Assembly (NCBI GenBank): GCA_012516125.1
Contig: JAAYXB010000067.1
Span: forward strand, 1-64,000
DNA length: 64,000 nt
DNA from: Bacillota bacterium
GTDB lineage: Bacteria; Bacillota; SHA-98; UBA4971
Direction: 5' to 3'
Part shown: in pieces, positions 14,732 to 33,969 of the stretch
Position numbering within the stretch: the stretch's first letter is position 1
Layout: each line of letters begins with the position of its first letter
The notes under the pieces: model-generated
The model's input: only the letters and a program-made list of their open reading frames with translations
Told to the model about the DNA's origin: nothing
The model's database searches: none
Made by a program: the position numbers and the translations under genes

Positions 14732-16285
14732 TCAGGGTATCTTCAGGACGTCCCCCGGATAGATGAGATCTGGATTCACTATGTTGTTTGTGGCGGCTAT
14801 TGCGTCCACGGTAGTACCGAAGCGCTGGGCGATGGACCAGAGGCTGTCGCCGGGCTGCACGATGTAGGTGCGGCCCCCGCCCCCAGGGGCGTCCTTGGGA
14901 CCAGGCGACCCAGGGCTCCACAGCCCTCCGCCTGAACCGCCGGCGGGACCACCGCCGGGACCACCGCCGGGCCCGCTCAATGGACCGCCGGGACCGCCCC
15001 ATGAACCCCCGGGACTGCCCCATGGACCGCCGCCAGCACCGCCACCAGGCCCGGCGCCGGGAGAAGCAGCCCCCGTGCCGCCACCCGTCCCGCCGCCCGT
15101 GCCGGGTCCAGACCCAGGGCCGGGGCCAGACCCGGGACCGAGGCCGGACCCGGACCCCGGTCGCGAGCTGTGCGGTCCACCCTGCTGCCCGCCTGTTCCA
15201 GAGCCCACACCCGCGCCCACTGGTTGGGGTGCGCCTTCGCCGCCCGCCTTCCCCATGGACGGCCACGACTCCACCGGCCCTGCGATGACGATGACCGGCG
15301 TGCCCACGTCCACCAGGCCGTAGAGTTCCTCAACGTCTTCGTTGTACATCCTGACGCAGCCGTTGGAGACCGCCTGACCGATCAGCTCCGGGCGGTTGGT
15401 GCCGTGGATACCGTGCATTTGATAGGTGAACGCCATCCACCGGGTGCCGAGGCCGCCCCCCGGGTACATGATCTTCTCCAGGATCCTATGGGTCCCCACG
15501 GGCGTTGGAGTCGAGGGTTTGCCGACGGCCACGGGGTATCGCCGCACGAGGCGGTCGCCCTCGTATAGGCCGAGAGCGCGCTCCCCCACGCTGATGACTA
15601 TGGTCCGGTCCGGCGCGCCCGGCGCCGCGCCTGCCGCGGACGCGGTCTCCATGTCAGCTCGGGCAACGCTCCGCATGGCTTCGCCGCGCCCCCGCTTGAG
15701 CACTGATCCTTGTTCCGTCTCTGCGCCTGACCCTGGCCCTGCCCATGTCCCTGGCCCTGTCCCTGGAGCCACTCCTGGCCCTAACCCTGGCACCGGCCCT
15801 GGCCCTGGCTCTGACTCTGGCTCTGGCTCTGGCTCTGGCTGCGACCCTGACCCCGGCTCCGGCCCTGGCGTCGCAGGTGTACCCGTCAGAAGCCCACCCG
15901 GTAGAGACCCACTCAGCGGAGGCCCACCCGGCGCAGGCCCGCCCGCCGGCGGCGGGCCCGGTGGAAACCCGCCTGGTGAAGACCCGCCCGGCGGGAACTC
16001 ATCCGGCGGCTCTTCCGCCGCGCCAGTCCCTTCCATCAAAACCGCAGGGTAGCCTTGCGGGTCAACCTCCCCATACAGTAGCTTCAGCGTCGCACAGTCC
16101 AGGATGCCCGTCACCTCGAGCCCGCATTCCCGCTGAAATGCTCTCACGGCGTCCTCCGTCCTGGACACGAACACACCCTCAGGCCCGCCGGGGTCGAACC
16201 CCAGCTTCGCCAGCATCTCCTGGGCGTCCGCAATGAACGGACCCGAGTCGCCACGCTTGAACGCCACCGGCCGCCTTATCGCCAT
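14732..16285 (-). CDS. L,D-transpeptidase with peptidoglycan-binding and LysM domains
   Basis: Cell-wall enzyme of about 517 aa. Order: PG_binding_1 domain (about 10-75, FKRGDSGPFIADAQEMLAKL...AVRAFQRECGL); Pro/Gly-rich linker (PEPEPEPESEPGPGPVPG); YkuD catalytic domain (about 225-335) with HGIHGTN and the active-site Cys in SNGCVRMYN (about 302); a second Gly/Pro/Ser linker; and a LysM domain at the C-terminus (TYIVQPGDSLWSIAQRFGTT). YkuD enzymes make 3-3 cross-links or attach proteins to peptidoglycan. No signal peptide is visible at the chosen ATG (16285) or in the longer open frame to 16429, so the export route is unclear. Both linkers are made of expanded short DNA repeats. Confidence 0.9.
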   Translation of the reverse strand: MAIRRPVAFKRGDSGPFIADAQEMLAKLGFDPGGPEGVFVSRTEDAVRAFQRECGLEVTGILDCATLKLLYGEVDPQGYPAVLMEGTGAAEEPPDEFPPGGSSPGGFPPGPPPAGGPAPGGPPLSGSLPGGLLTGTPATPGPEPGSGSQPEPEPEPESEPGPGPVPGLGPGVAPGTGPGTWAGPGSGAETEQGSVLKRGRGEAMRSVARADMETASAAGAAPGAPDRTIVISVGERALGLYEGDRLVRRYPVAVGKPSTPTPVGTHRILEKIMYPGGGLGTRWMAFTYQMHGIHGTNRPELIGQAVSNGCVRMYNEDVEELYGLVDVGTPVIVIAGPVESWPSMGKAGGEGAPQPVGAGVGSGTGGQQGGPHSSRPGSGSGLGPGSGPGPGSGPGTGGGTGGGTGAASPGAGPGGGAGGGPWGSPGGSWGGPGGPLSGPGGGPGGGPAGGSGGGLWSPGSPGPKDAPGGGGRTYIVQPGDSLWSIAQRFGTTVDAIAATNNIVNPDLIYPGDVLKIP

Positions 16286-16775
16286 AGTCCAACGCCACCC
16301 CCTCGCCTGGCCTCGCCTCGACCCTATCATATGCGGACGCCTCCCTGCCTGCGCCCGGCCAGGCGCTGGCTCGTCCCACCCGAAGCCGGGGCAAGCTGGG
16401 CAATCGCACCATCGCCCTGCACGAGGCAAAGCCGTGGCCGCTCGAGTTTGATGCCCAGCAAGGCACAGCTGCGGCGGCCCAAGTTTGACGACCGGTCAGG
16501 CCCAGCCACGGCGACGCGTCGATCAAAGAGGAGTTGCGTCAGGCAAGAAGAAGCACTATACTTGGGATACAACCGGTTGCACCCTGCACGCCGTCCGGTG
16601 GAACGATGCAGGTTGCCAGTCCGGTCGCCGGTCCGGTTGCCGACCCGGCCGTCGGTTCGGTTGCCCATCTGGCCGCCGGTCTGGTTGCTGACGCGGCTGT
16701 CGGTCTCGTCGCCGGTCCGGTCGCCGGTCGGGCCGTGTCGGCCGGCACCAGAGTGAAGCCGAGGGGGATGACGAA
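16286..16775. other. Divergent upstream region with low-complexity tract
   Basis: Lies between the L,D-transpeptidase (minus) and the second LacI gene (plus). 16612-16740 is a degenerate repeat built on CCGGTTGCCG/CCGGTCGCCG units. The only clear signals are the promoter and operator at 16534-16581 described separately; no gene is seen. Confidence 0.5.
16534..16581 (+). promoter_or_regulatory. Sigma-A-type promoter with overlapping LacI operator
   Basis: TTGCGT (16534-16539), a 17-bp spacer, then TATACT (16557-16562). Six bases further lies TACAACCGGTTGCA (16568-16581), whose inner CAACCGGTTG is a perfect palindrome with central CG, as in LacI-family operators. A repressor bound there would cover the start site. 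The promoter points at the LacI-type gene starting about 195 bp downstream. Confidence 0.7.
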
Positions 16776-17813
16776 GTGCCCGTCACCATGCAGGATCTGG
16801 CTCAGTGGCTGAAGATTTCGAAGTCAACCGTGTCGAGGGCGCTCGCAGGCGACCCGCGCGTGAGCAGCGAGACGCGCGCGCGAGTCCAGCATCTCGCGCG
16901 CGAGCTCAACTACCATCCACACTCCGCGGCAAGCGGTCTTGCGCGGCGCCGCACCAACGTCATCGGCCTCGTCATCCCGTTCGCGCCGCGTTCCCTCTCC
17001 GACCCGTTCTTCCTGGAGTTCGTAGGCGGCATAGGAGACTACGCGATCACCAAAGGATTCTCGATCCTGCTATCGAGCCCGAGGGCGTCCCAGGACGAGC
17101 CCTCAGGCAACACCACGTTCACGAAGATCGTAAGCTCTCGCCGCGTGGACGGGCTCATCCTCACGGAGCCGAGGATCGCCGACGAGCGCGTGGACTTCCT
17201 GAAGGAACGCGACATCCCGTTCGTGTTCCTGGGCAACCCCGGTCGCAACAGCGACATATGCTGGGTAGACGGTGACAACCAAGCCGGTGTGGAAATGGCC
17301 GTGGACCATCTCGTCGGCCTCGGGCACAGGGACATAGCGTGCATCGCAGGCCCGCCGGACCAGACCGCCACGTTCCGGAGGCTCGAAGGATACCGTGCGG
17401 CGCTCCAGCGCCACGGCATTCCGTACGACGAGTCGCGCATCGCGCAAGGAGACTTCGCCGAACCCGGCGGATACCGCGCAATGATGGACATCCTCGACCG
17501 AAACCCCGGCATTACCGCGGTCTTCGCCTGCAACGACATGATGGCCATAGGCGCCATAAACGCCGCGAGGCAGCGCGGCCTCAGGGTGCCCCAGGAGATC
17601 TCGGTGGTGGGGTTCGACGGCATTGCCCTCGGCGCCTACGTCACCCCGGCGCTCACCACGGTCACGCAGCCCATCTACCGCCTGGGCCAGGCCGCGGCTG
17701 AGCTACTCATCAAGCTCGTCGAAAGGCAGACCCCGACCGAACGGCACGTGCTGTTCCCGCTCACCCTGACGGTGCGAGAGTCCAGTGCCAGGAGACAAGG
17801 GTTCGCCGAATGA
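16776..17813 (+). CDS. LacI-family transcriptional regulator
   Basis: Second LacI-family regulator in the window, 345 aa. Helix-turn-helix VTMQDLAQWLKISKSTVSRA (about 3-22), hinge region HSAASGLARRRTNVIGL, then a sugar-binding-type effector domain with the typical end VVGFDGIALGAYVTPALTTV. The start is GTG with GAGGGGG eight bases before it. A promoter and palindromic operator upstream suggest autoregulation. No transporter or sugar enzyme is adjacent, so the effector and regulon are unknown. Confidence 0.92.
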   Translation: MPVTMQDLAQWLKISKSTVSRALAGDPRVSSETRARVQHLARELNYHPHSAASGLARRRTNVIGLVIPFAPRSLSDPFFLEFVGGIGDYAITKGFSILLSSPRASQDEPSGNTTFTKIVSSRRVDGLILTEPRIADERVDFLKERDIPFVFLGNPGRNSDICWVDGDNQAGVEMAVDHLVGLGHRDIACIAGPPDQTATFRRLEGYRAALQRHGIPYDESRIAQGDFAEPGGYRAMMDILDRNPGITAVFACNDMMAIGAINAARQRGLRVPQEISVVGFDGIALGAYVTPALTTVTQPIYRLGQAAAELLIKLVERQTPTERHVLFPLTLTVRESSARRQGFAE

Positions 17814-18133: not shown

Positions 18134-19090
18134 TCACGGAAACACGATAATGCCGACGGTGAAGCCCGGTTGATACGAGAACCGGTCGGGCGCGAGGGCG
18201 CTTCGCTGGAGCGACACCCCTGCTGTGAAGCCGATGGACATCGGCTTCGTCGCGGTGAGCTTCATGATGATCTCGTGCTGCTTGTTTATGATGTCCTTCA
18301 TTTCGCGGATGAGATCCTGCAGCGTCTTCGCCATCTCGAGCGCCTGTTCGGTCTGGGTTTTCCGGGTCTCGGCGATGGCCCGCTCCTCCACCCAGTCTGA
18401 ACGGTAACCGCGCGCGAGGTCGAGCGCTTCCTGAAGCGCGGCCTCGAGTTCGACGATCCGCTCCAGCGCGTTGAGGTATAGCGCCTTCAGTTCCGCGTAT
18501 GTCTCGGGAACCTGCACATCCTGGGGCGCGCTGGACCCTGAGGGCGCAGCTGCAGCGGCGTCGTTTGCCACCTGGAACGGCGGTTCCGCCTCCGTTCCAG
18601 GTCCTGCTCCTCCGCCAGCCGCGGCTACCACAATAGCATCGTCCGCAATCATTGCATCAACAATGGGTGCATCAACAATGGCCGCATCTGCAGAGGTTGC
18701 ATTTGCAGTGGCTGCACCACCACCGGTTGCGTCGGCAGTGGCTACATCGGCAGTAGTTGCGTCTACGTCTACAATGGTTGCATCTGCAATGGTTGCTTCG
18801 GCAATGGCTACGTCGACAATGCCTGCGTTGGCAACGGCGGCACTGGCAACGTCTGCACTGGCAATGGCTGCACCGGCAATGGCTGCACCGGCAATGGCTG
18901 CATCCGTAAAGCTCCTCCCCGCGAGGGTGATGCCCGATAGCGTCCTGTCCGCAACAGCTGCGCCAGCCAGGGCAGCCTCAGTGGGTGCATCCATACAGAT
19001 CATGCCCTTCGCCAGAGCGGGCACACAGCATGCTGCCAGCGCCAGCACGACGGCCGCCGTCACTATCGTCACCCGTCTAACCCCTCTCAC
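18134..19090 (-). CDS. Exported coiled-coil protein with 5-residue repeats, unknown function
   Basis: A 318-aa protein of unknown function with a signal peptide or anchor (TIVTAAVVLALAACCVPALA). Residues about 40-150 are Ala-rich with period 5 (AIAGA, AIAGA, AIASA, AIAEA, TIADA), encoded by 15-bp tandem DNA repeats; the spacing recalls pentapeptide repeats but the A(D/N)LXX consensus is not met. Residues about 200-285 form a coiled coil (ALYLNALERIVELEAALQEA), followed by a short C-terminal beta-rich tail (GFTAGVSLQRSALAP). The GTG start overlaps the stop of the upstream gene (GTGA). It is the last gene of a holin-like cassette. Confidence 0.7.
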   Translation of the reverse strand: MRGVRRVTIVTAAVVLALAACCVPALAKGMICMDAPTEAALAGAAVADRTLSGITLAGRSFTDAAIAGAAIAGAAIASADVASAAVANAGIVDVAIAEATIADATIVDVDATTADVATADATGGGAATANATSADAAIVDAPIVDAMIADDAIVVAAAGGGAGPGTEAEPPFQVANDAAAAAPSGSSAPQDVQVPETYAELKALYLNALERIVELEAALQEALDLARGYRSDWVEERAIAETRKTQTEQALEMAKTLQDLIREMKDIINKQHEIIMKLTATKPMSIGFTAGVSLQRSALAPDRFSYQPGFTVGIIVFP

Positions 19091-19380
19091 TTCTTCGTCC
19101 TCCTCTCGAGGTCCTCGAGCCTCTTGTCGCGCTCGCGGACCCGCGCGTCTATCTCGGCCTGCTTCTCGTCAAGCTTCTTCATCTCTTCCCAGATGAGCTT
19201 CACCTGCTCCTCAACGGACGCCATGCTCTCCAAGGCTTGCTCGGCCTTTTCTTTCGCCTCAAGCGCCTCACGCAAAAGGCGGTCGTGCTGGTACCACTTG
19301 ACTCCCACGAACACCACGGCAGCCGCGAGGACGACCACAAGGACCCATGGCGCCCACTTCTTGATGATCGGCAATAGCAT
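19087..19380 (-). CDS. Small membrane-anchored coiled-coil protein (spanin/Rz-like)
   Basis: 97 aa: one N-terminal membrane segment (WAPWVLVVVLAAAVVFVGV, about 9-27) followed by a long charged coiled coil (EALEAKEKAEQALESMASV, ending LEDLERRTKK). The ATG at 19380 follows AGGAGGTG. The frame is open upstream to 19791, but that extension has no better start. Topology resembles phage Rz or DUF-type lysis accessory proteins. Position downstream of a holin-like gene supports a lysis-cassette origin; I do not claim a specific family. Confidence 0.7.
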   Translation of the reverse strand: MLLPIIKKWAPWVLVVVLAAAVVFVGVKWYQHDRLLREALEAKEKAEQALESMASVEEQVKLIWEEMKKLDEKQAEIDARVRERDKRLEDLERRTKK

Positions 19381-19607
19381 GACACCACCTCCTTCGTGCC
19401 CACCACACTCCAGGCACCTACTGCGCTGCCAGCGCACGTCACGGGTTCCCTGCGAATCGTTCTGGCAGTATTGGCGCCACTCTGCCACATAGACAGCCAG
19501 CTCCCCCTTTTTGCGTGGCCTGGCGCCCGGCGCCCCATATTCGAAGAGTCCAGCGTAGCGGCTTGGGCGGCGGGACTGCCAGGAGTTACATATGTGTTGA
19601 AGTAGCA

Positions 19608-19898
19608 TTAATTCCCGAGCACCGTAGTCCAGTAGATCTTGAACAGGCCCATGGCGGCAAAGGCCACCTTTAACGTTTGCACCGTGGTCTGCGCCAGAAA
19701 CGCCGGCCACCCCGGCCATTCCCCAGCGGCGCCGATGACGGCGAGCGCCGACAGGACCGCGCTCACTGGAAAAGGCAGAAGAGGTATCCACCTCTTGTTG
19801 ACGTGCTTCTTGAGGTATTGCACGATGACGATCACAAGGGGGATCAGGCCTGCATCAAGGAGGTTGAGGTCATACCCTATCCTTACCCCGTTCTCCAT
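19608..19898 (-). CDS. Holin-like membrane protein
   Basis: 96 aa with hydrophobic segments at about 16-32 (AGLIPLVIVIVQYLKKHV), 40-58 (LLPFPVSAVLSALAVIGAAG) and 68-88. The size and hairpin topology match phage holins, which sit next to a muramidase or amidase. AGGAGGGG precedes the ATG. The genes at 19087 and 18134 follow on the same strand, and an amidase gene lies divergently at 20133. A prophage remnant or a domesticated lysis cassette is likely. Confidence 0.72.
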   Translation of the reverse strand: MENGVRIGYDLNLLDAGLIPLVIVIVQYLKKHVNKRWIPLLPFPVSAVLSALAVIGAAGEWPGWPAFLAQTTVQTLKVAFAAMGLFKIYWTTVLGN

Positions 19899-20132
19899 GG
19901 TCTCGCCCCTCCTGCGCGCTCAATAGACGGTTCCCACGTCGGCGATGCAGCTTACTGCGGAACGTGTGGCGGACGCCCGGTGCGGTTTCCCCTCATAATC
20001 TACGCAGGGCTGCCAATCAGTGTCACGACTGGGACGGGGCCTGCATACGTTAACGATGCAGGGTTGAGGACGCCCTGACAGACGGTTCAGACGATCAGCA
20101 GCCAGCCGCAGGGCCAGGGGAGGTGGTGCCAT

Positions 20133-20723
20133 ATGCTCAGGGAAAAGACAGTCGTGTGTCTTGACCCTGGCCACTAGCGCGGCGGGGACGATCCCGGCGC
20201 GGTGGGCAAGCTCGGGACGCGCGAGGCCGACATAAACCTCGCCATGGCAGCCAGGGTTGCGGCCGTGCTACGAAGCGGGGATATTGAGGTGATTCTGACC
20301 AGGACGAAAGACGCCTCGGTGTCCCTCAGGACGCGCGTAAACAGGGCGAACAACGCCGACGCGGCGTCATTCGTGTCGGTCCACTGCAACTCCGCCGACA
20401 GCGACTCATCTCACGGCACCGAAGCATACTACTACACGGCCAGCGACGCAGGAAAGAAGCTGGCGACCGCGATACTCAGGCCCCTCGTCCGCGCGACCAG
20501 CCTCGCCGACAGGGGCGTCAAGAGCGCAGGATTCTACGTGCTGCGGCACACCAGGATGCCGGCAGCGCTCATCGAGCTTGCGTTCATATCGAACGAGAAC
20601 GAAGAGAAGCTGCTGAGGGACGAGAGCTTTCAGACAAAGGCGGCGCGGGCCATCGCGGATGGAATCGTTGCGTGGTTGCGCGGGGGGCATGCTTCCCTGG
20701 GCTGGTTGCCGCATACCCGCTGA
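20133..20723 (+). pseudogene. N-acetylmuramoyl-L-alanine amidase (Amidase_3) interrupted by an in-frame TAG
   Basis: The frame beginning at ATG 20133 (GGGAGGTGG upstream) reads VVCLDPGH, then TAG at 20175-20177, then RGGDDPGAVG. After that comes a good Amidase_3 domain: READINLAMA, FVSVHCNSAD (second zinc His), LRHTRMPAALIELAFISN (catalytic Glu) and NEENEEKLL-like end. The TAG replaces the residue just after the first zinc ligand His of the DPGH motif. A restart at GTG 20202 would lack that ligand and should be inactive. Either this is a recent nonsense mutation or the codon is read through. The enzyme would cleave the muramoyl-peptide amide bond and be the endolysin of the holin cassette. 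Confidence 0.85.
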
Positions 20724-26091: not shown

Positions 26092-29000
26092 TTAGTCAGA
26101 CTCCTCGGGGAATCTCAGCCTGCCGAAGCCGAAGCCCTCGCGGTACAGCTCCACCTTGAAGCAGGCGTGGACTCTCGTCTCGTTGCCGACGACGTCCCTG
26201 GCTTTGATCTCGATCGAGTGCCACTTGTCATCGGTGGCCTCGAATGGGAGGTTCACCACGTAGTAGAGCGTACCGCCCACTATCGCGGTGGGTGCGACCC
26301 ATTCGCCCTCGTCGATCTTTAGCCACACCTTGGCCTGGTCGACACCCGAGCCACTGTCGAACAGGTCGGCGAGGATCGTGGACGCCGTCGTGATGTTGAG
26401 CCTTGCGCCGTTCTCCGGGTTGATGAGCGTGATGACCGGCGCTACCGTGTCCACCAGGACCTCCGCCGGGCCAGCCCAGGCGCTTGCATTACGCAAGGCG
26501 TCGAGCGCCCTGACCTTGAGGTTGTGCCGCCCGTCAGCAAGCGGGGGCGCTGTGTAGCTGGTCACGTTGCCGACGTTCACCGCAGCACCGCCGTCAAGCG
26601 ACACTTCGTAGCTTGCGACATCACCCGTCGAAGCCGTCCATGTCCAGGTTGGCGTGTTGTCGTTTGTTGGCGTCGACACGGCCAGGTTCGTCGGCACGTC
26701 AGGGGCGGTCGTGTCGATGGTCACGTAGCCCGCAGGAGACCACGCGCTCTCCTGCCCGAAGGCATCCTTCGCCTTCACGCGCAGCGCGTATGTCCCGTCG
26801 GCGAGGTCCGTACTGTACGTCCAGCTCGTGACGTTGCCGACCCAACCTTCGTAGATCACCGAGCCTCCGCCGTTGTCCGGGATAGGTTCACCGGTGCTGA
26901 GCTCGACATAGTAGCTATCTACGCCGATGCCCGCGTCACTGGCGGCAGCCCACGTCCAGGCCGGCCGCTTGTTGGTCGTCGGGCTTGGCGTGCTGGGGGT
27001 GCCAGGCGCGCTCGGCCCGCTCGCATCTTGCGTCGAGTGCACGATGTTAGACCATCCGCTGGGGATCGGCTCCGACGCATCCATATCGATGGCGCGGACC
27101 CTGTAGTGGTAGGTCACACCGTCGCTCAGTGAGTCGAATGTCTTGGACGTGCCTGTTACGTTCTCGTCCTCGGCGGTGATCGTCGCGAACGTCGAGTCAG
27201 TCGAGCACTGCACGTGGTACCTGTCAGCACCGGACACCGCACCCCACGACACCGTGTTGGACGTGCCCTGCGTGAATTCGGGCTCGGCTGCCATCACCGG
27301 CGCCGCGAGCGGGTTCGGGTCCTGCGTAGAGGAGGTCGGTTCGGACCACTCGCTCACGTTGCCGGCCGCATCCTTGGCCCTGACCCTGTAGTAGTAGGTC
27401 TGGCCAGGAGCAAGGCCTGTGAACGTCGCGGAGGTCACACCCGCCTCAACGCTCTGGATCGGCGAACCGGCCGGGAACTCGGCGCTCGTGCTCATTTGCA
27501 CGTCGTACCCGGCAAGTCCGGATACCGCGTCTGCCACTCCGCTGTCAGCCACAGCACCCCAGGATACCGCGTTGGACGTGCCAGGCGTATATTGGGGCTC
27601 AGTCTCCATGGTTGGTACCGGCGGGGCAGTCCGGTCCACGATCGCCGGCAGCGACCACGGCGACCAGTATTCGTCGTCACCCTCGTTACCGACCTTGTCG
27701 ATGGCGCGGGCGCGGACCATCCAGCGTCCCTCAGGCGCGTCACTCGCGGTGTAAGTGGTGACTTCGCCAGGCAGCACCTCGTCGTCCGTGCCCCCCGTGC
27801 CATCCGGAGCCAGGTACGAGAGTTCGAGCCTGTATGCCCCGATACCCGACACTTCGTCGATCGCCGTCTGCCACTGGAATGTCAGCACGTCGCCGTTGGT
27901 GACGAGCGGCGTGATGGTCGGCATCGAACCGATCGGGAACGGCGGGCTCGCGTCCTGCGTCGAGTTGACTATGTTGGACCAGAAGCTCACGTTGTTGAGT
28001 TCGTCGATAGCCCGGACTCTGTAGTAGTAGGTCACGCCGTCCTGCAGGCCCGCGAACTCCTTGAACGTTCCGGTCACGGTGTCGTCTTGAAAGTCCACTG
28101 TAGTGAATGTCGAGTCGCTCGAGCACTGCACATGGTAGCGTGCCTCGCCTGAGACATCGCCCCATGACACCGTGTTGGCGAGACCCTGAGTGAACTCGGG
28201 CTCAGCCGCCATCACGGGTGCGTCGGGAGCCGTGGCGTCGATGGTCACCGTCGGGAAGACGAGCAGCGTCTCGTTCCCTGCGTTGTCAACGCCCACTACG
28301 AGTAGCACGTGCTCACCATCGGCCAGGTCGGAGCTGGGTGTGAACGAGTTCTCGGTCGTCCAGCCCGCCGCCTCGCCATCTAGGGTCACCATATAACCCC
28401 TCACGCCGGATACCTCATCCGAACCGCTCCACTGCCACGTGGGCCTCGGGTCCGGAGTCACTACCGGCTCATCTGGCGAGACAGCATCAAGCTCGGGACC
28501 GGTCCTGTCCACGATCGTCTGGACCTCGTTGGACTCGTCGCTGTCATTGCCGGCAGCATCATAGGCAACCACCTTGCCCATGATCACGTCACCGTCAGAC
28601 GCATCGCTGATGTCCAGCGTGTAGGTCTGCACCGTCAGATCAGGCACCGAGTGCCAGTTGCTGCCACCGTCAACGCTATAGAAGAAGTCATACTTCACCG
28701 CGTCGGTCACCTGCGACCAAATGAAGATGACCTCATCAGCGTTAGTGAACTCCGGCAGCGGGAGCATCGCAGGAGCCGCTGGCGGAGTCGTGTCGATCAC
28801 CACATACCCGGCCTCCGACAGGGCACTCTCGTTGTCCAGGTCGTCGAGCGAGCTCACCTGCAGGTGGTGCTGGCCGTCTCCAAGCGCCTCATCCTCAGGG
28901 ACTGTGTAGCTGGGCGCTGTCACGTTGTCAACGAGCTCATCGTCCAGATACACGTTGTAGCTCGCCGCTCCCTCAACGCCAGCCCACGTCCAGGTGGGCG

Positions 29001-32000
29001 TCGTGTCGTTGGTCGGGCTCGCCGTCTGCGGCATCCCAGGCACATCAGGCGGAGTAGTGTCGACGGTCACCGTCGCAAGAGTGACCTCACCACCCTCGTT
29101 CCCGACATTGTCAACGCCCTTCACCTTCAGCACATGGTCGCCATCAGGGAGGTCTGCGCCTGGCGTGAAGGAAGTGTCAGTCGTCCAGATGGGCGCTTCT
29201 CCGTCAAGAGTCACCCAGTAGCCTTTCACTCCCGTGCCGCTTCCATCGTCGCCGCTCCAGGTCCACGTCGGCCTCGGATTGTTGGTACGCGACGTCGGGG
29301 GTGCACCCGCAGTCACCGTCGGACCCGTGGTGTCGATCGTCACGTAGCCGATTACGGACCAGTCACTCTCCTGGCCGAGGGCATCTTTCGCCTTCACCTG
29401 AAGTCCGTACTGGCCGTCAGCGACTATGACCCCAGCCGGAACTGTCCAGGTGGTGGTGTTGCCGATCCAACCCTCCCAAGGTGTCCCGCCGCCTGTATAC
29501 CAGAAGTAGACGTAGTAGTTAGCGACGCCAGATCCGGTGTCAACAGCGGGGGTCCATGTCCAGGTTGGAGTCGTGTCATTGGTCGGGCTCGCCGTCTCAG
29601 GGGTCCCCGGAGCAGTCGGCGCGCTCGCGTCCTGCGTCGATGAGACGATGTTGGACCACAGGCTCACCCTGCCACCGTATGCAATGGCCTGCACACGGTA
29701 GTAGTAGGTGTGCCCGTCTTCGAGGTCGAATGTTGCCGAGGTAGTTCCGGCGGGGACCAGACTCGACATCGAGACAATGCCGAAGGACGGATCCTCGGAT
29801 ACCTCGACATTGTAATACTGCTCGTTGTCAACATCGCTCCAGCTCACCGTGTTCTGGGTGCCCTGAGTGAATTCAGGCTCGGCGTTCATGCCCGGGGCGT
29901 ACGCTTGCCGGACCTCGAACACCCACTCGTAAGAGCCGGAGTTTCCAGCCACATCGTAAGCACTGACATGGGCCGTATAGGTCCCGTCAGCAAGATCGAG
30001 CCCGATAGGCTGTGTGAATACAGCCTCTCCAGTTTCCGGATCCCAGGACTGAAGCTGCAGTTCCCACGGGATCATGCCAGGCCCGTCGATGTAGCACTCC
30101 AGCGAGTCTCCATCGACCCCGCTACCTTCTGTCCCGTCGCCGGCGAGGGGATCGGTGATGGTGACATGGATCTCGGTCCACTTGTCCCACGTGGTGGTTT
30201 CCTCAGCCGGATAGGGATTGCTGAAGGTCGGCGGAGTGGTGTCCACGGTGAACGTCCAGGAGTAGGGATCCGGGTTATCCGTGTTGTTGCCTGCGCGGTC
30301 GAACGCGGTGAGCCGCACCGTCCACGTGCCGTCGTTGGGCAGCGTAACGGGAGTTCCGGGCCAGCTCTCGCCCTTGATTTGCCCGGTGAGAGCACCGACG
30401 GATGGCCCAGTTATGGCGGGCACGCTCGTCCACGTCGCCCCGTCGTCCGCATCCTGGTATCTCATCCACGGATTGAGCGGAGGAGCGATGGCAAACCCGG
30501 ACCTGTCGTCAGCATAGTCCGCAGTGAACGTCACCTGGCGGCTGTTCAATAGCCCGGTCGGCGCGCCGTTCATGAGCGTGGGCTTGCCGGTGTCAAGGGT
30601 GAACGTATCGGCTGTATATCCGCCTTCGCTACCTCCGCCACCATACGCGCCGCTTGTATTGCCCGCCCTGTCGACGGACCAAACGCGCACCTGGTAGTCT
30701 CCGTCGGGTGATAGGGCATCAGAAGCGGGTATCGTGAAGCTAAGACCCGTGATGCCCGTGTAAGGGCCGCGGATCATCGCAGCGCCTCCGCCGGTCGTCC
30801 AGACCTCCAGTATGTAGCTTGCGATGCCCGAGCCGCCCGGGTCGGACCCCTCCGTCCAGGTGAAAGTCGGCGTCGTATCGTTGGTGAACTCCGGTGCCGT
30901 CACAGACCCTGGAGGATTGGGCGCCGTCAGGTCTACTGTGAAGTACCACGTCAGGCTCGCGACATTCTGCGCGAGGTCGCGCACCGTGATGTCGACCTTG
31001 TGCGTCCCTTCCGCGAGCGGGCCGACATTCTTGGTGATGTTGCCGGTGAGCGCACCGTCGTCAGGCTCACCGTCGGGCGTAATGTCTGTGCCGTTCAGCT
31101 TGAACACATTGGGCGACCAAGTCTTGTCATACCCGCTTGCGCCTGCGCCGCTATCCGTGAATCTCACAGACAGGGTCGGGCTCGCGTTGCTGATGTAGCC
31201 CGTCGGCGACTCGTTGTCGAGCACCGGGTCGGTCGTGTCAAACTTGAACGTGTCGGACCCGTACGTCTCGCTCACGTTGGTCGCCTTGTCCACCGACCAC
31301 ACCCGGATCTCGTAGGCGCGGTCTGTCGGGAGCGGGTCTGGCAAGGTCCACTGGAAGCCGGGGTCGCCGCTCTCGTCGGTCACCGCGACATATGGCCCGA
31401 GGACCCGCGCCCCACCGCTCCATATCTCGACGTTGTAGCTCCCAACGCCCGAGCCAGTCGGCGGTGCAGCATCTTCACCCGGATCTGTCCCGAGGTCCCA
31501 CGAGAACGCCGGTGTAGGATCATTCGTTTGGTCGGGGGCCGTCACACCAGTTGGGGTATCCGGCGGGAGCGTGTCCACAAAGAAGTCCCACGTCAGATTC
31601 GCACTATTCCCTGCCAGGTCCTCAACCGCGATGTAGACGGTGTGTGACCCCTGGCCAAGATCCGACGTGATCTGCTTGGTGATGTACCCCAGCGTATCCC
31701 CGGCGTTCGGCTCCGAATCGGGGTCGCCCAAGGGGCTTCCGTCGAGGGTGAACGACGTTGGCGAGTCGGCCTTGTCATACCCGCTGGCCGGGTATCCGAG
31801 GTCTCTGAACCTCACCGATAACAACGGAGTCGCGTCGTTGATGAAGCCCGTGGGCAACTGCTGGTCGAGCATCAGCGGGTTTGTCGTGATGTCCACCCCG
31901 AAAGTCGTACTGCCGTAGCCGGTACTCCTGTTGCCCGCTACGTCTACGGAGTAGACGCGCACCTCATAGATCTCTTCTGTGAGCGCGTCAGGCAGCGTCC

Positions 32001-33969
32001 ACTGCACGCCGAGAGTGCCGCCATCCTGGTCGGTCACGCCGGTGTATGTCTTCTCGGCGGACGCGCCACCGCTTACCCATATCTCCACGTCATAGCTCGC
32101 TACACCAGAGCCACCCGTGTCAGTCGCCTCATCCCACTGGAACTTGGGCGTCGAGTCGTTTGTCCAGTAAGCGGGTGGAGGCGTCGGGTCCGGAGTAGCA
32201 TCCGGCAACGTCACGTTGGTGGGCGTGCTGGGAGGAGTGTTGTCTACGTTGAACGTCCACCCGTACGTTCTCGAGTTGCCCACACGGTCCTCGACTGTTA
32301 TGCTGACCGTATGTGGCCCGTCCCCTAGCTCCGTGGTGACATCCTTGGTTATGTACTCCGGGCCTACGCTCCCGTCCGCCGGCTCCGAATCGGGGTTGCC
32401 CAACGGACTTCCGTCGAGGGTGAACGCGGTCGGCGATGCGGCTTGGTCGTAACCGCTCGCACCAGCTCCCGTGTCCCTGAACCTAACCGAGAGCGTCGGG
32501 GTGGTATCGCTCGTCCAGCTTCCACTCGCCGGCTGCTCCCAGTCAAGCGTGGGAGAAGTTGTGTCGAGCTTGAAAGTGTCGCTGGCATACGAGCTGCTGG
32601 TGTTCCCCGCGTTGTCAACGGAGTACACCCGGATCTCGTACTCGCCGTCAACGCTCAACGCGTCGGGCAAGGTCCAATCCATCTCGGGGGTCGCCGGATT
32701 GCCATCCGTCACGCCCGTGTACGGCCCTCTCACGAGCATCGCGCCGCCCCCGGTGCTCCAGATCTCCACGGTGTATGTGCCGACACCGGACTGCTCAGCA
32801 GGCGGCCCGTTGTCCTCGGCCACAGGCCAGTAGAAATCCGGAGTCGAATCGGCCGTGTACTCCGGAGCCGTGACAGAAGCCGGTTCATTCGGCGCAACGC
32901 TGTCAACGAAGAAATTCCACGTAAGCTCGGCTATATTCCCGGCACGATCCTGCACCTTTATGTACGCGGTGTGATCGCCCTGGGTGATCGCCGGAGCCAC
33001 ATCCTTCGTAATGCTATCCACAAGCGCGCCATCTGAAGGATTGTGCGTGGGTGGCAGCACAGATTCGCCATCCAGCGTGAATGACAGCGGCGAATTCGTC
33101 GCGTCGTAGCCGCTTGCAGCTGCGCCCAGATCTCTAAACCTCACAGTGAGCGTCGGGGTATCGTCGTTGGTGTACCCCGTCGGTCCCTGCTGGTCCAGGA
33201 CCGGCGCGGTGGTGTCGATCATGAACTCAGCCGTTCCAGGGGCTGTGCTCACGTTGGCGGCTTTATCAACCGCCCACACCAATATATCGTAGTCGCCCGG
33301 CGGCAGCGGGTCTCCATCAGGGATGCTCCACTGGACACCTGCATCGCCGCTCTGGTCAACGACTCCCGTGTAGCTCTTGACCGTAGCGCCGCCATGGATG
33401 TTTATCTTCACGTTATAACTGGCGATGCCCGAAGCGGGGGATCCCCCATCGGCGGGCTCCGTCCAAGTAAACGACGGCGTCGTGTCATTGGTATACGGCG
33501 GCGTGCCGGTCACGCCAGTAACATTGCCCGGTGGCGTATTATCCACGATCACCGCTTCCGTCTCGGTGTCGCTGGCCGACCCGTCGTGGTTGGTGACCGT
33601 GACCACGACGTCGTATTTACCTTCGGCGGCACCTGAGTCGATGGTCACGTTGCCTGTAAACTGCGCACCATCAGGACCTGTGTCCTGGATAGCCGGGTAG
33701 GCGTATGTGCGCTCGCCCACCACTGTCGAGGTCGCCGGGTCGACCACCTGGATCGTCGCGCTCGTCGTGTTGGCGTCCATGGGCATCGACGTATAATTGA
33801 ACGTAACGTACACGTTATTGCCCGGCGCCACGGCGGCCTTCGACGTGTTGGTGGGCGAGACGATGTTCACGCCAGTCGGCGCCTCAGCCAGCGCGACGGC
33901 CGGCAGTGCAACCAGCGCCACCAGGGCTACCATCGCTCCTAGTAACCACTTGGGCTTGATTCGTACCAT
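26092..33969 (-). CDS. Giant secreted surface protein with tandem Ig-like and FnIII-like domains
   Basis: 2,625 aa, one uninterrupted frame of 7.9 kb. Signal peptide WLLGAMVALVALVALPAVAL. The N-terminal half alternates two domain types about five times: TNDTTPxFTWTEPxDGG...YEIRVxSVDxAGN, and PTGYxNDxTPTLSVRFRDxG...SGYD...FTLDGxxLG...GYITK. The C-terminal half has FnIII-like units (AEPEFTQGTxNTVSW...TYYYRVRAID...WSNIVxSTQD) mixed with DTTxPxxPxxxxxSPTNDxTPTWTW units. No LPXTG, SLH domain or membrane anchor is visible; the end is EGFGFGRLRFPEESD. Probably adhesive or a cell-envelope filament. Repeat homogeneity suggests active recombination between units. AAAGGAGAGAAGGAG precedes the ATG. Confidence 0.9.
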   Translation of the reverse strand: MVRIKPKWLLGAMVALVALVALPAVALAEAPTGVNIVSPTNTSKAAVAPGNNVYVTFNYTSMPMDANTTSATIQVVDPATSTVVGERTYAYPAIQDTGPDGAQFTGNVTIDSGAAEGKYDVVVTVTNHDGSASDTETEAVIVDNTPPGNVTGVTGTPPYTNDTTPSFTWTEPADGGSPASGIASYNVKINIHGGATVKSYTGVVDQSGDAGVQWSIPDGDPLPPGDYDILVWAVDKAANVSTAPGTAEFMIDTTAPVLDQQGPTGYTNDDTPTLTVRFRDLGAAASGYDATNSPLSFTLDGESVLPPTHNPSDGALVDSITKDVAPAITQGDHTAYIKVQDRAGNIAELTWNFFVDSVAPNEPASVTAPEYTADSTPDFYWPVAEDNGPPAEQSGVGTYTVEIWSTGGGAMLVRGPYTGVTDGNPATPEMDWTLPDALSVDGEYEIRVYSVDNAGNTSSSYASDTFKLDTTSPTLDWEQPASGSWTSDTTPTLSVRFRDTGAGASGYDQAASPTAFTLDGSPLGNPDSEPADGSVGPEYITKDVTTELGDGPHTVSITVEDRVGNSRTYGWTFNVDNTPPSTPTNVTLPDATPDPTPPPAYWTNDSTPKFQWDEATDTGGSGVASYDVEIWVSGGASAEKTYTGVTDQDGGTLGVQWTLPDALTEEIYEVRVYSVDVAGNRSTGYGSTTFGVDITTNPLMLDQQLPTGFINDATPLLSVRFRDLGYPASGYDKADSPTSFTLDGSPLGDPDSEPNAGDTLGYITKQITSDLGQGSHTVYIAVEDLAGNSANLTWDFFVDTLPPDTPTGVTAPDQTNDPTPAFSWDLGTDPGEDAAPPTGSGVGSYNVEIWSGGARVLGPYVAVTDESGDPGFQWTLPDPLPTDRAYEIRVWSVDKATNVSETYGSDTFKFDTTDPVLDNESPTGYISNASPTLSVRFTDSGAGASGYDKTWSPNVFKLNGTDITPDGEPDDGALTGNITKNVGPLAEGTHKVDITVRDLAQNVASLTWYFTVDLTAPNPPGSVTAPEFTNDTTPTFTWTEGSDPGGSGIASYILEVWTTGGGAAMIRGPYTGITGLSFTIPASDALSPDGDYQVRVWSVDRAGNTSGAYGGGGSEGGYTADTFTLDTGKPTLMNGAPTGLLNSRQVTFTADYADDRSGFAIAPPLNPWMRYQDADDGATWTSVPAITGPSVGALTGQIKGESWPGTPVTLPNDGTWTVRLTAFDRAGNNTDNPDPYSWTFTVDTTPPTFSNPYPAEETTTWDKWTEIHVTITDPLAGDGTEGSGVDGDSLECYIDGPGMIPWELQLQSWDPETGEAVFTQPIGLDLADGTYTAHVSAYDVAGNSGSYEWVFEVRQAYAPGMNAEPEFTQGTQNTVSWSDVDNEQYYNVEVSEDPSFGIVSMSSLVPAGTTSATFDLEDGHTYYYRVQAIAYGGRVSLWSNIVSSTQDASAPTAPGTPETASPTNDTTPTWTWTPAVDTGSGVANYYVYFWYTGGGTPWEGWIGNTTTWTVPAGVIVADGQYGLQVKAKDALGQESDWSVIGYVTIDTTGPTVTAGAPPTSRTNNPRPTWTWSGDDGSGTGVKGYWVTLDGEAPIWTTDTSFTPGADLPDGDHVLKVKGVDNVGNEGGEVTLATVTVDTTPPDVPGMPQTASPTNDTTPTWTWAGVEGAASYNVYLDDELVDNVTAPSYTVPEDEALGDGQHHLQVSSLDDLDNESALSEAGYVVIDTTPPAAPAMLPLPEFTNADEVIFIWSQVTDAVKYDFFYSVDGGSNWHSVPDLTVQTYTLDISDASDGDVIMGKVVAYDAAGNDSDESNEVQTIVDRTGPELDAVSPDEPVVTPDPRPTWQWSGSDEVSGVRGYMVTLDGEAAGWTTENSFTPSSDLADGEHVLLVVGVDNAGNETLLVFPTVTIDATAPDAPVMAAEPEFTQGLANTVSWGDVSGEARYHVQCSSDSTFTTVDFQDDTVTGTFKEFAGLQDGVTYYYRVRAIDELNNVSFWSNIVNSTQDASPPFPIGSMPTITPLVTNGDVLTFQWQTAIDEVSGIGAYRLELSYLAPDGTGGTDDEVLPGEVTTYTASDAPEGRWMVRARAIDKVGNEGDDEYWSPWSLPAIVDRTAPPVPTMETEPQYTPGTSNAVSWGAVADSGVADAVSGLAGYDVQMSTSAEFPAGSPIQSVEAGVTSATFTGLAPGQTYYYRVRAKDAAGNVSEWSEPTSSTQDPNPLAAPVMAAEPEFTQGTSNTVSWGAVSGADRYHVQCSTDSTFATITAEDENVTGTSKTFDSLSDGVTYHYRVRAIDMDASEPIPSGWSNIVHSTQDASGPSAPGTPSTPSPTTNKRPAWTWAAASDAGIGVDSYYVELSTGEPIPDNGGGSVIYEGWVGNVTSWTYSTDLADGTYALRVKAKDAFGQESAWSPAGYVTIDTTAPDVPTNLAVSTPTNDNTPTWTWTASTGDVASYEVSLDGGAAVNVGNVTSYTAPPLADGRHNLKVRALDALRNASAWAGPAEVLVDTVAPVITLINPENGARLNITTASTILADLFDSGSGVDQAKVWLKIDEGEWVAPTAIVGGTLYYVVNLPFEATDDKWHSIEIKARDVVGNETRVHACFKVELYREGFGFGRLRFPEESD

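Follow-up and report, generated by a model that had tools for sequence, protein, structure and literature searches.

In gene 60 of phage T4, ribosomal bypassing is promoted by stem-loops on the 5′ side of and at the take-off codon (PMC5009743, PMC11194080), and the gene has a homing endonuclease as its neighbour, from whose cleavage the insert is thought to protect it (PMC5009743). Short counterparts of gene 60 have long been presumed (PMC5009743). Hops over an in-frame stop codon have been described in E. coli in synthetic constructs only; such hops could hide behind apparent readthrough, and according to the same review no natural case was known (PMC5009743). In the mitochondria of Magnusiomyces capitatus, 81 instances of bypassed inserts, the byps, are spread over 12 of 15 protein genes and are believed not to depend on mRNA context (PMC5009743). 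Here, we describe an in-frame amber codon within an endolysin-like amidase gene of a Bacillota bacterium (assembly GCA_012516125.1, contig JAAYXB010000067.1, positions 1 to 64,000), which we compare to these systems. The whole stretch of 64,000 nucleotides (nt) is called the window in the following. An earlier report of such a stop in amidase or endolysin genes was not found in the open-licence literature.

The comparisons presented below make us confident that this is a functional gene subject to programmed recoding, and an in-frame stop hop by peptidyl-tRNA-His is the probable form of that recoding. The ribosome would reach the CAC codon at 20172-20174 with UAG in its A site; the peptidyl-tRNA-His would detach, skip the UAG, re-pair on the next codon (mostly CAY, i.e., CAC or CAT, among the relatives, but CGC here) and resume at GGC. 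Nine nt would thereby encode one His, and the product would have the canonical DPGHGG, reading ...CLDPGHGGDDPGAVGK across the junction in the window protein and ...DAGHGGTDSGAVGNGLR in that of Geobacillus phage vB_GthS_PK5.1 (PK5.1). We infer both the hop and its efficiency from sequence comparison. With somewhat less assurance, we propose further that this is a natural and conserved stop hop, in which CAY-UAR-CAY (UAR being UAG or UAA) is decoded as a single His in the phage and prophage endolysins of several lineages and which is driven by a covarying 5′ hairpin, that several HNH endonucleases independently use this silent and resistant hexanucleotide as a mark at a single conserved active-site motif, and that bypassing evolved repeatedly as immunity to their cassettes.

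The amidase gene and its in-frame stop

The locus has the following features, given in window positions (G and L numbers are our handles for genomes and loci).

20117 to 20126, plus strand: Shine-Dalgarno-like sequence GGGGAGGTGG preceding the ATG; relatives have similar purine-rich leaders before the start
20133 to 20174, plus strand: first part of the amidase open reading frame (ORF), 14 codons (MLREKTVVCLDPGH), the last being that of the zinc-ligand His; differences within the genus are mostly synonymous
20135 to 20171, plus strand: hairpin abutting the take-off codon, with outer arms at 20135-20142 and 20165-20171 and an inner stem at 20145-20150 and 20157-20162
20172 to 20174, plus strand: CAC, proposed take-off codon, encoding the zinc-ligand His at the end of the first part
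20175 to 20177, plus strand: in-frame TAG stop, codon 15, directly after DPGH; first half of a 6-nt insert
20178 to 20180, plus strand: CGC, proposed landing codon and second half of the insert; CAY in most relatives, and absent together with the TAG in locus L112
20181 to 20723, plus strand: second part of the amidase ORF, from GGDDPGA to TGA, which by itself matches Pfam Amidase_3 with E 2.2e-52

We confirm the amber codon at 20175-20177; the Amidase_3 gene that contains it is otherwise intact. It lies in a host genome (G000) of 3.24 Mb in 98 contigs. From the ATG at 20133, behind its ribosome binding site, the gene extends to the TGA at 20721-20723, the frame being open from 20178 onwards, so that the first-pass annotation, made from the letters of the window, was right in describing an otherwise intact frame with a TAG directly after DPGH. 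With an X at the stop, residues 8-178 of the protein match Amidase_3 at E 3.7e-56, covering model positions 1-172 of 174. Furthermore, the stop-free relative L112 aligns with the solved amidase CwlV (1jwq; E 2.9e-38, from sequence comparison only).

A stop within a conserved motif could in principle mark a plain pseudogene, arising from a recent nonsense mutation or from an assembly error. The first-pass annotation had invoked a single change of TAC or TAT to TAG, assuming that homologues usually have an aromatic or similar residue after DPGH. Neither assumption survived the comparison: Gly follows the zinc-ligand His in 49 of the 50 stop-free homologues that we collected, and the TAG belongs to a conserved 6-nt insert. 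A stop stands at the same site in five genomes of the genus, in four others of the class and in unrelated phages, and in the plaque-forming PK5.1 the gene serves as the endolysin gene. After the stop, the ratio of nonsynonymous to synonymous substitution rates (dN/dS) is 0.09-0.31 between genus members (165 codons compared). From the lack of downstream decay, it had been concluded that the event was recent or that the codon was read through. The lack of decay holds, as does the need for the ribosome to pass the codon; the recent origin does not, since the insert is old and conserved. A pseudogene is therefore highly improbable, and both the point mutation and the recent pseudogene were rejected on the conservation of the stop.

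It is also very improbable that translation begins at an internal start, which would yield a truncated protein after the stop and leave the first 14 codons as a leader peptide. A GTG is available at 20202, and the describers of PK5.1 annotate one endolysin with a start downstream of the stop (the term 'stop codon' is absent from the available text; PMC10459684). However, the truncated product would lack the first zinc ligand, a cost of restarting at 20202 that the annotation had correctly foreseen. Moreover, the DPGH that precedes the stop is conserved, its changes being mostly synonymous (over the 12 codons before the stop, the synonymous difference per site exceeds the nonsynonymous one in every genus pair), and the exact 6-nt size of the insert would be left unexplained.

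An in-frame TAG might further be decoded by an amber suppressor tRNA, as pyrrolysine or in a TAG-reassigned code, and the annotation had recommended a search for suppressor and pyrrolysine genes. This search came back empty: no CUA anticodon is present among the 44 tRNAs of G000, and PylS stays below its family cut-off in all ten genomes searched. In addition, release factor RF1 is intact in G000, TAG is an ordinary stop in the window, where it ends 10 of the 46 long ORFs, and relatives have TAA at the same site. The probability of such decoding is practically negligible, and it was rejected on the grounds of tRNAs, PylS search, RF1 and TAG use.

The six-nucleotide insert and the proposed landing codon

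Because canonical amidases read DPGHGGxDPGA, the stop and the codon following it constitute an extra 6 nt. They comprise TAR (TAG or TAA) plus one codon, usually CAY, and lie after the codon of the zinc-ligand His and before GGN GGN, which results in CAY TAR CAY. Among 61 genomes compared, TAG is found at the same place in the best matches of four further members of the genus (G001-G004), such that five of the six genus genomes share the insert; the remaining one, G005, has no close match to the window amidase. In other families of the class, TAG occupies the site in G013, G015 and G016, and TAA in G014. All of these eight read DPGH * [H/R/Y/P] GGxDPGA (the asterisk denoting the stop). G015 carries a second, stop-free copy, L112, which lacks exactly the 6 nt and which in a quick tree is the sister of the stop copy of G013 (L184). 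In this tree, which has long branches, the stop label changes 15 times by parsimony, at least five changes being forced by well-supported branches; the tree cannot separate gain from loss of the stop. Judged by its distribution, the insert is old and conserved, occurring in phage and prophage endolysins and in bacteria beyond the class; it did not arise recently, nor by a point mutation.

We tabulated 27 stop-bearing sequences, from which near copies (L124 and L328, resembling L119 and L126) and non-amidases (L118, L125, L179, L180, L234, L286, L296 and L327) had been dropped. The stop is TAG in 25 of them, TAA in two and TGA in none, and it lies directly 3′ of the take-off codon in all 27, by selection. 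GG is preceded by CAC in ten, CAT in eight, CGC in three and CAA in three sequences, with TAC, CCC and CTT occurring once each. A CAY landing codon thus is present in 18/27, and for the four with CGC or TAC, G-U pairing with the anticodon GUG is possible.

Pattern scans of viruses and genomes were accompanied by an amidase profile (a hidden Markov model built from the TAR sequences and the window protein), which gives the 50 stop-free amidases scores of 91-234 bits. In IMG/VR, DPGH-TAR-NNY-GG occurs in nine stretches, seven of which are true amidases, and the corresponding TGA pattern in 52 stretches, none with amidase similarity. When any two codons were allowed between DxGH and GGxDxG, 33 stretches were found; 14 are amidases, every one with TAG as the first insert codon, and the other 19 show no similarity to the amidase family. 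The same two-codon pattern is present at 13 places in 398 genomes of the phylum. Eleven of these are amidases, all with TAR, and the remaining two, both in G375, are Gly-rich as judged by translation. The 37 genomes of the class of G368 contain two amidases, both with TAR (G368 again and G406), and the 299 genomes of the class of G037 contain one TAG amidase, which matches the viral L126 without a single difference over 2,034 nt, and one further place without an amidase match. Across these unbiased scans (IMG/VR and the 398, 37 and 299 genomes), not a single amidase has a two-codon insert that begins with a sense codon. This argues in favor of a hop rather than of tolerated extra residues, because sense versions of the insert should otherwise exist.

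A scan with CATTAG fixed and a gap of 0-15 nt before GG gave 11 amidase matches, with a gap of 3 in eight, of 8 in one and of 11 in two, and a gap of 0 or 6 in none of the 11. The gap-11 matches (L304 and L316) have a canonical DxGHGG, with CATTAG lying ahead of it by chance and out of frame. That the gap is 3 and never 0 favours the hop, because a lone stop would suffice for readthrough, whereas a hop needs a landing codon. The gap-8 match, L299, reads CAT TAGCTATT CAT GGC GGA; the gap is out of frame, the landing CAT is matched, and both flanks encode an intact amidase. Since the gap shifts the frame, the L299 protein would not be made by readthrough alone, but could be made by a hop.

The main alternative is programmed UAR readthrough by a near-cognate tRNA, which would give a longer loop, DPGH-x-H/R-GGxDPGA, at a stop rendered leaky by the hairpin described below and by the following C. 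Readthrough is common in biology, the presence of UAG and UAA but never UGA is compatible with it, and the loop near the site differs in length among some cellular amidases. We nonetheless regard it as unlikely, given the missing sense versions, the lack of any single-stop insert among the CATTAG-scan amidases, the Gly that follows His in stop-free homologues and the out-of-frame gap of L299; moreover, it leaves the prevalence of CAY after the stop unexplained.

The stop hop in turn has to contend with several observations. L299 comes from a single metagenomic contig and may reflect an error or a dead copy. In 5/27 cases, GG is preceded by CAA (three sequences, two of them near-identical), CCC or CTT, codons that pair poorly with tRNA-His, and the landing codon of the window itself is CGC rather than CAY. 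A C follows the stop in 26/27 sequences, as would be equally expected if the context made the stop leaky, and TGA is absent from the site, a bias not predicted by a plain hop. Finally, a pattern one Gly codon short was found in 16 stretches, of which one is an amidase, L193, and this related amidase tolerates HQKG after the zinc-ligand His, a variation in loop length that readthrough could claim for itself.

As to L193 (IMGVR_UViG_3300050124_000048, minus strand), its sense codons after the zinc-ligand His read DPGHQKGADSGA, and it is the nearest tree relative of the out-of-frame L299. The site may have escaped or been re-fixed in it.

The upstream hairpin and the neighbouring endonucleases

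The hairpin that abuts the take-off codon has a 5′ arm made mostly of codons 2-6 and a 3′ arm made of the D-P-G codons. In the window, the segment 20120-20174 folds with z = -2.16. Over the 55 nt before the stop, 25 stop-bearing sequences have a mean fold z of -1.66 (24 negative); for 22 stop-free genes whose start is near, the mean is -0.25 (p = 2e-4, Mann-Whitney). Upon swapping of the 3′ arms among 22 stop genes, the arms were found to covary: own arms pair at -13.8 kcal/mol, compared to -10.4 kcal/mol for swapped ones (p = 5e-5, the lowest value reachable with 20,000 permutations). In 13 stop-free genes, own pairs were not stronger (p = 0.12), and in L112, which is without the 6 nt, the hairpin is broken too. 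The arms of L119, L185, L209, L222 and L299 are little or no better than swapped ones, which detracts from a general role of the hairpin in the hop. A structure containing the stop codon, as in gene 60, is not general in this family, in that most z are near 0 for the segment spanning the stop, with L121, L122, L126 and L222 (z -2.0 to -5.4) as exceptions. The hairpin might act on initiation instead; its association with the stop, however, argues for a role in recoding, which for this reason we favour. It would probably stimulate the hop by refolding behind the moving ribosome, a mechanism that has been proposed for the 5′ stem-loop of T4 gene 60.

An HNH ORF, mostly ending at the start of the amidase, lies directly upstream of the stop-bearing gene in 9/27 cases (L123, L126, L209, L222, L191, L326, L212, L215 and L235, the last being PK5.1). 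Pfam HNH or HNH_3 matches are above the cut-off in L126, L209, L191 and L235 and below it in L222. The upstream ORF of L123 has no Pfam match and is 65% identical to the PK5.1 HNH protein, and those of L212, L215 and L326 were assigned to HNH by their likeness to L235 and L191. Five of the 27 retain remnants of a first amidase start, which is cut at DxGH(GG). In L212, L215 and L235, a first amidase start ending in DAGHGG is followed by the HNH ORF and then by a second start with DAGH-TAG-CAY-GG; their relatives D6E, PT9.1, PK3.5 and GBSV1 have an uninterrupted DAGHGG. L126 has a decayed first copy, WIDA*HGG. The cassettes thus entered at the DxGH(GG) codons. The 6-nt insert sits in this entry site, as would be expected of a cleavage-resistant allele. 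In PK5.1, the interrupted gene is the endolysin of the lysis cassette; this phage forms plaques, and its HNH gene has been noted between holin and endolysin (PMC10459684).

A further decayed first copy (MVERRAVCLDPCH; VCLDPCH) is found in L120 (5830-6120, minus strand), approximately 60 nt before the TAG-bearing copy, with no HNH gene left. The upstream HNH protein of L191 and L326 looks unlike the type of PK5.1, L126 and L123, so that the site may be used by endonucleases of more than one type.

The row of first start copy, HNH ORF and second copy in L212, L215 and PK5.1 could also be taken for an interrupted gene that is repaired at the RNA level, the insert, or in PK5.1 the HNH-containing segment, being an intron. 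We find this scarcely credible. L235, L215 and L007 have no Rfam group I or II match at E <= 1, the upstream ORF of L184 and L185 ends shortly before the ribosome binding site without any first exon, and at 6 nt the insert is too short to be an intron.

On balance, we lean towards the view that homing endonucleases drove the recoding and maintained or spread it, as in T4 gene 60; the insert most likely began as a resistant allele of a homing-endonuclease cassette targeting the DxGHGG codons. This view is weakened by the 18/27 sequences without an HNH ORF directly upstream, which include the genus of the window, where no endonuclease of that type was found near the amidase, and by the failure to find the PK5.1 HNH in any of 17 genomes of the class, although this search had no positive control and its empty result by itself shows nothing. 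Few or no relatives of the PK5.1 HNH gene were found in phages, plasmids and the class, and in IMG/VR, 3 of 41 HNH loci adjoin an amidase.

With respect to the neighbourhood of the amidase in the window, a small hydrophobic ORF of 96 amino acids (19608-19898, minus strand) is divergent from the gene and is holin-like by eye, with no Pfam or PHROG match at 1e-3. An overlapping ORF (19087-19791) has a weak match to an Rz-like spanin PHROG, and these two ORFs beside the amidase are possibly a split lysis module. Further away, the window encodes a protein with YkuD L,D-transpeptidase, PG_binding_1 and LysM domains (14732-16429, minus strand), a 345-residue protein matching phrog_11145, DNA binding protein, at E 2.6e-69 (16776-17813, plus strand), and a protein of 2,625 residues with bacterial Ig-like (Big_13) and fn3 repeats (26092-33969, minus strand).

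Relation to known recoding systems

If the stop hop is true, the family provides more than 20 candidates for natural stop hops, one of them in a cultured, plaque-forming phage, and it may account for the truncated annotation of such endolysins, PK5.1 being an example. The pairing of endonuclease and bypass in T4 would then be a repeated strategy rather than a freak.

The similarities to T4 gene 60 are considerable: a UAG directly follows the take-off codon, the landing codon is matched in most sequences (18/27, the window, with its CGC, not among them), a homing endonuclease gene adjoins (here in 9/27 cases and not in the genus of the window), and a stem-loop lies on the 5′ side, here as a hairpin with covariation at p = 5e-5. 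However, the gap is 6 nt (8+3 nt in L299) compared to 50, and the frame is kept. Furthermore, take-off is located 10-18 codons after the start, which leaves no room for a long nascent-peptide signal, the protein is an Amidase_3 enzyme instead of a topoisomerase, and there is no significant stem-loop holding the stop.

Compared to programmed readthrough, the amidases share a UAR codon inside one coding sequence, mostly with C as the next base. Readthrough in this case, however, would lengthen the zinc loop by two residues, and it would leave the CAY codons, the missing sense versions and L299 unexplained.

The byps resemble the amidase insert in being short inserts in coding sequences that are neutralised in translation, with a take-off and landing match that is sometimes imperfect. 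They differ in that they are mitochondrial, whereas the stop described here is confined to one gene family and one site and is accompanied by a hairpin. The closest functional parallel would be the synthetic stop hops of E. coli, where, according to the same review, the product is likewise two residues shorter than that of readthrough (PMC5009743). In contrast to those constructs, the amidase hop would be natural and conserved, and would come with a hairpin of its own.
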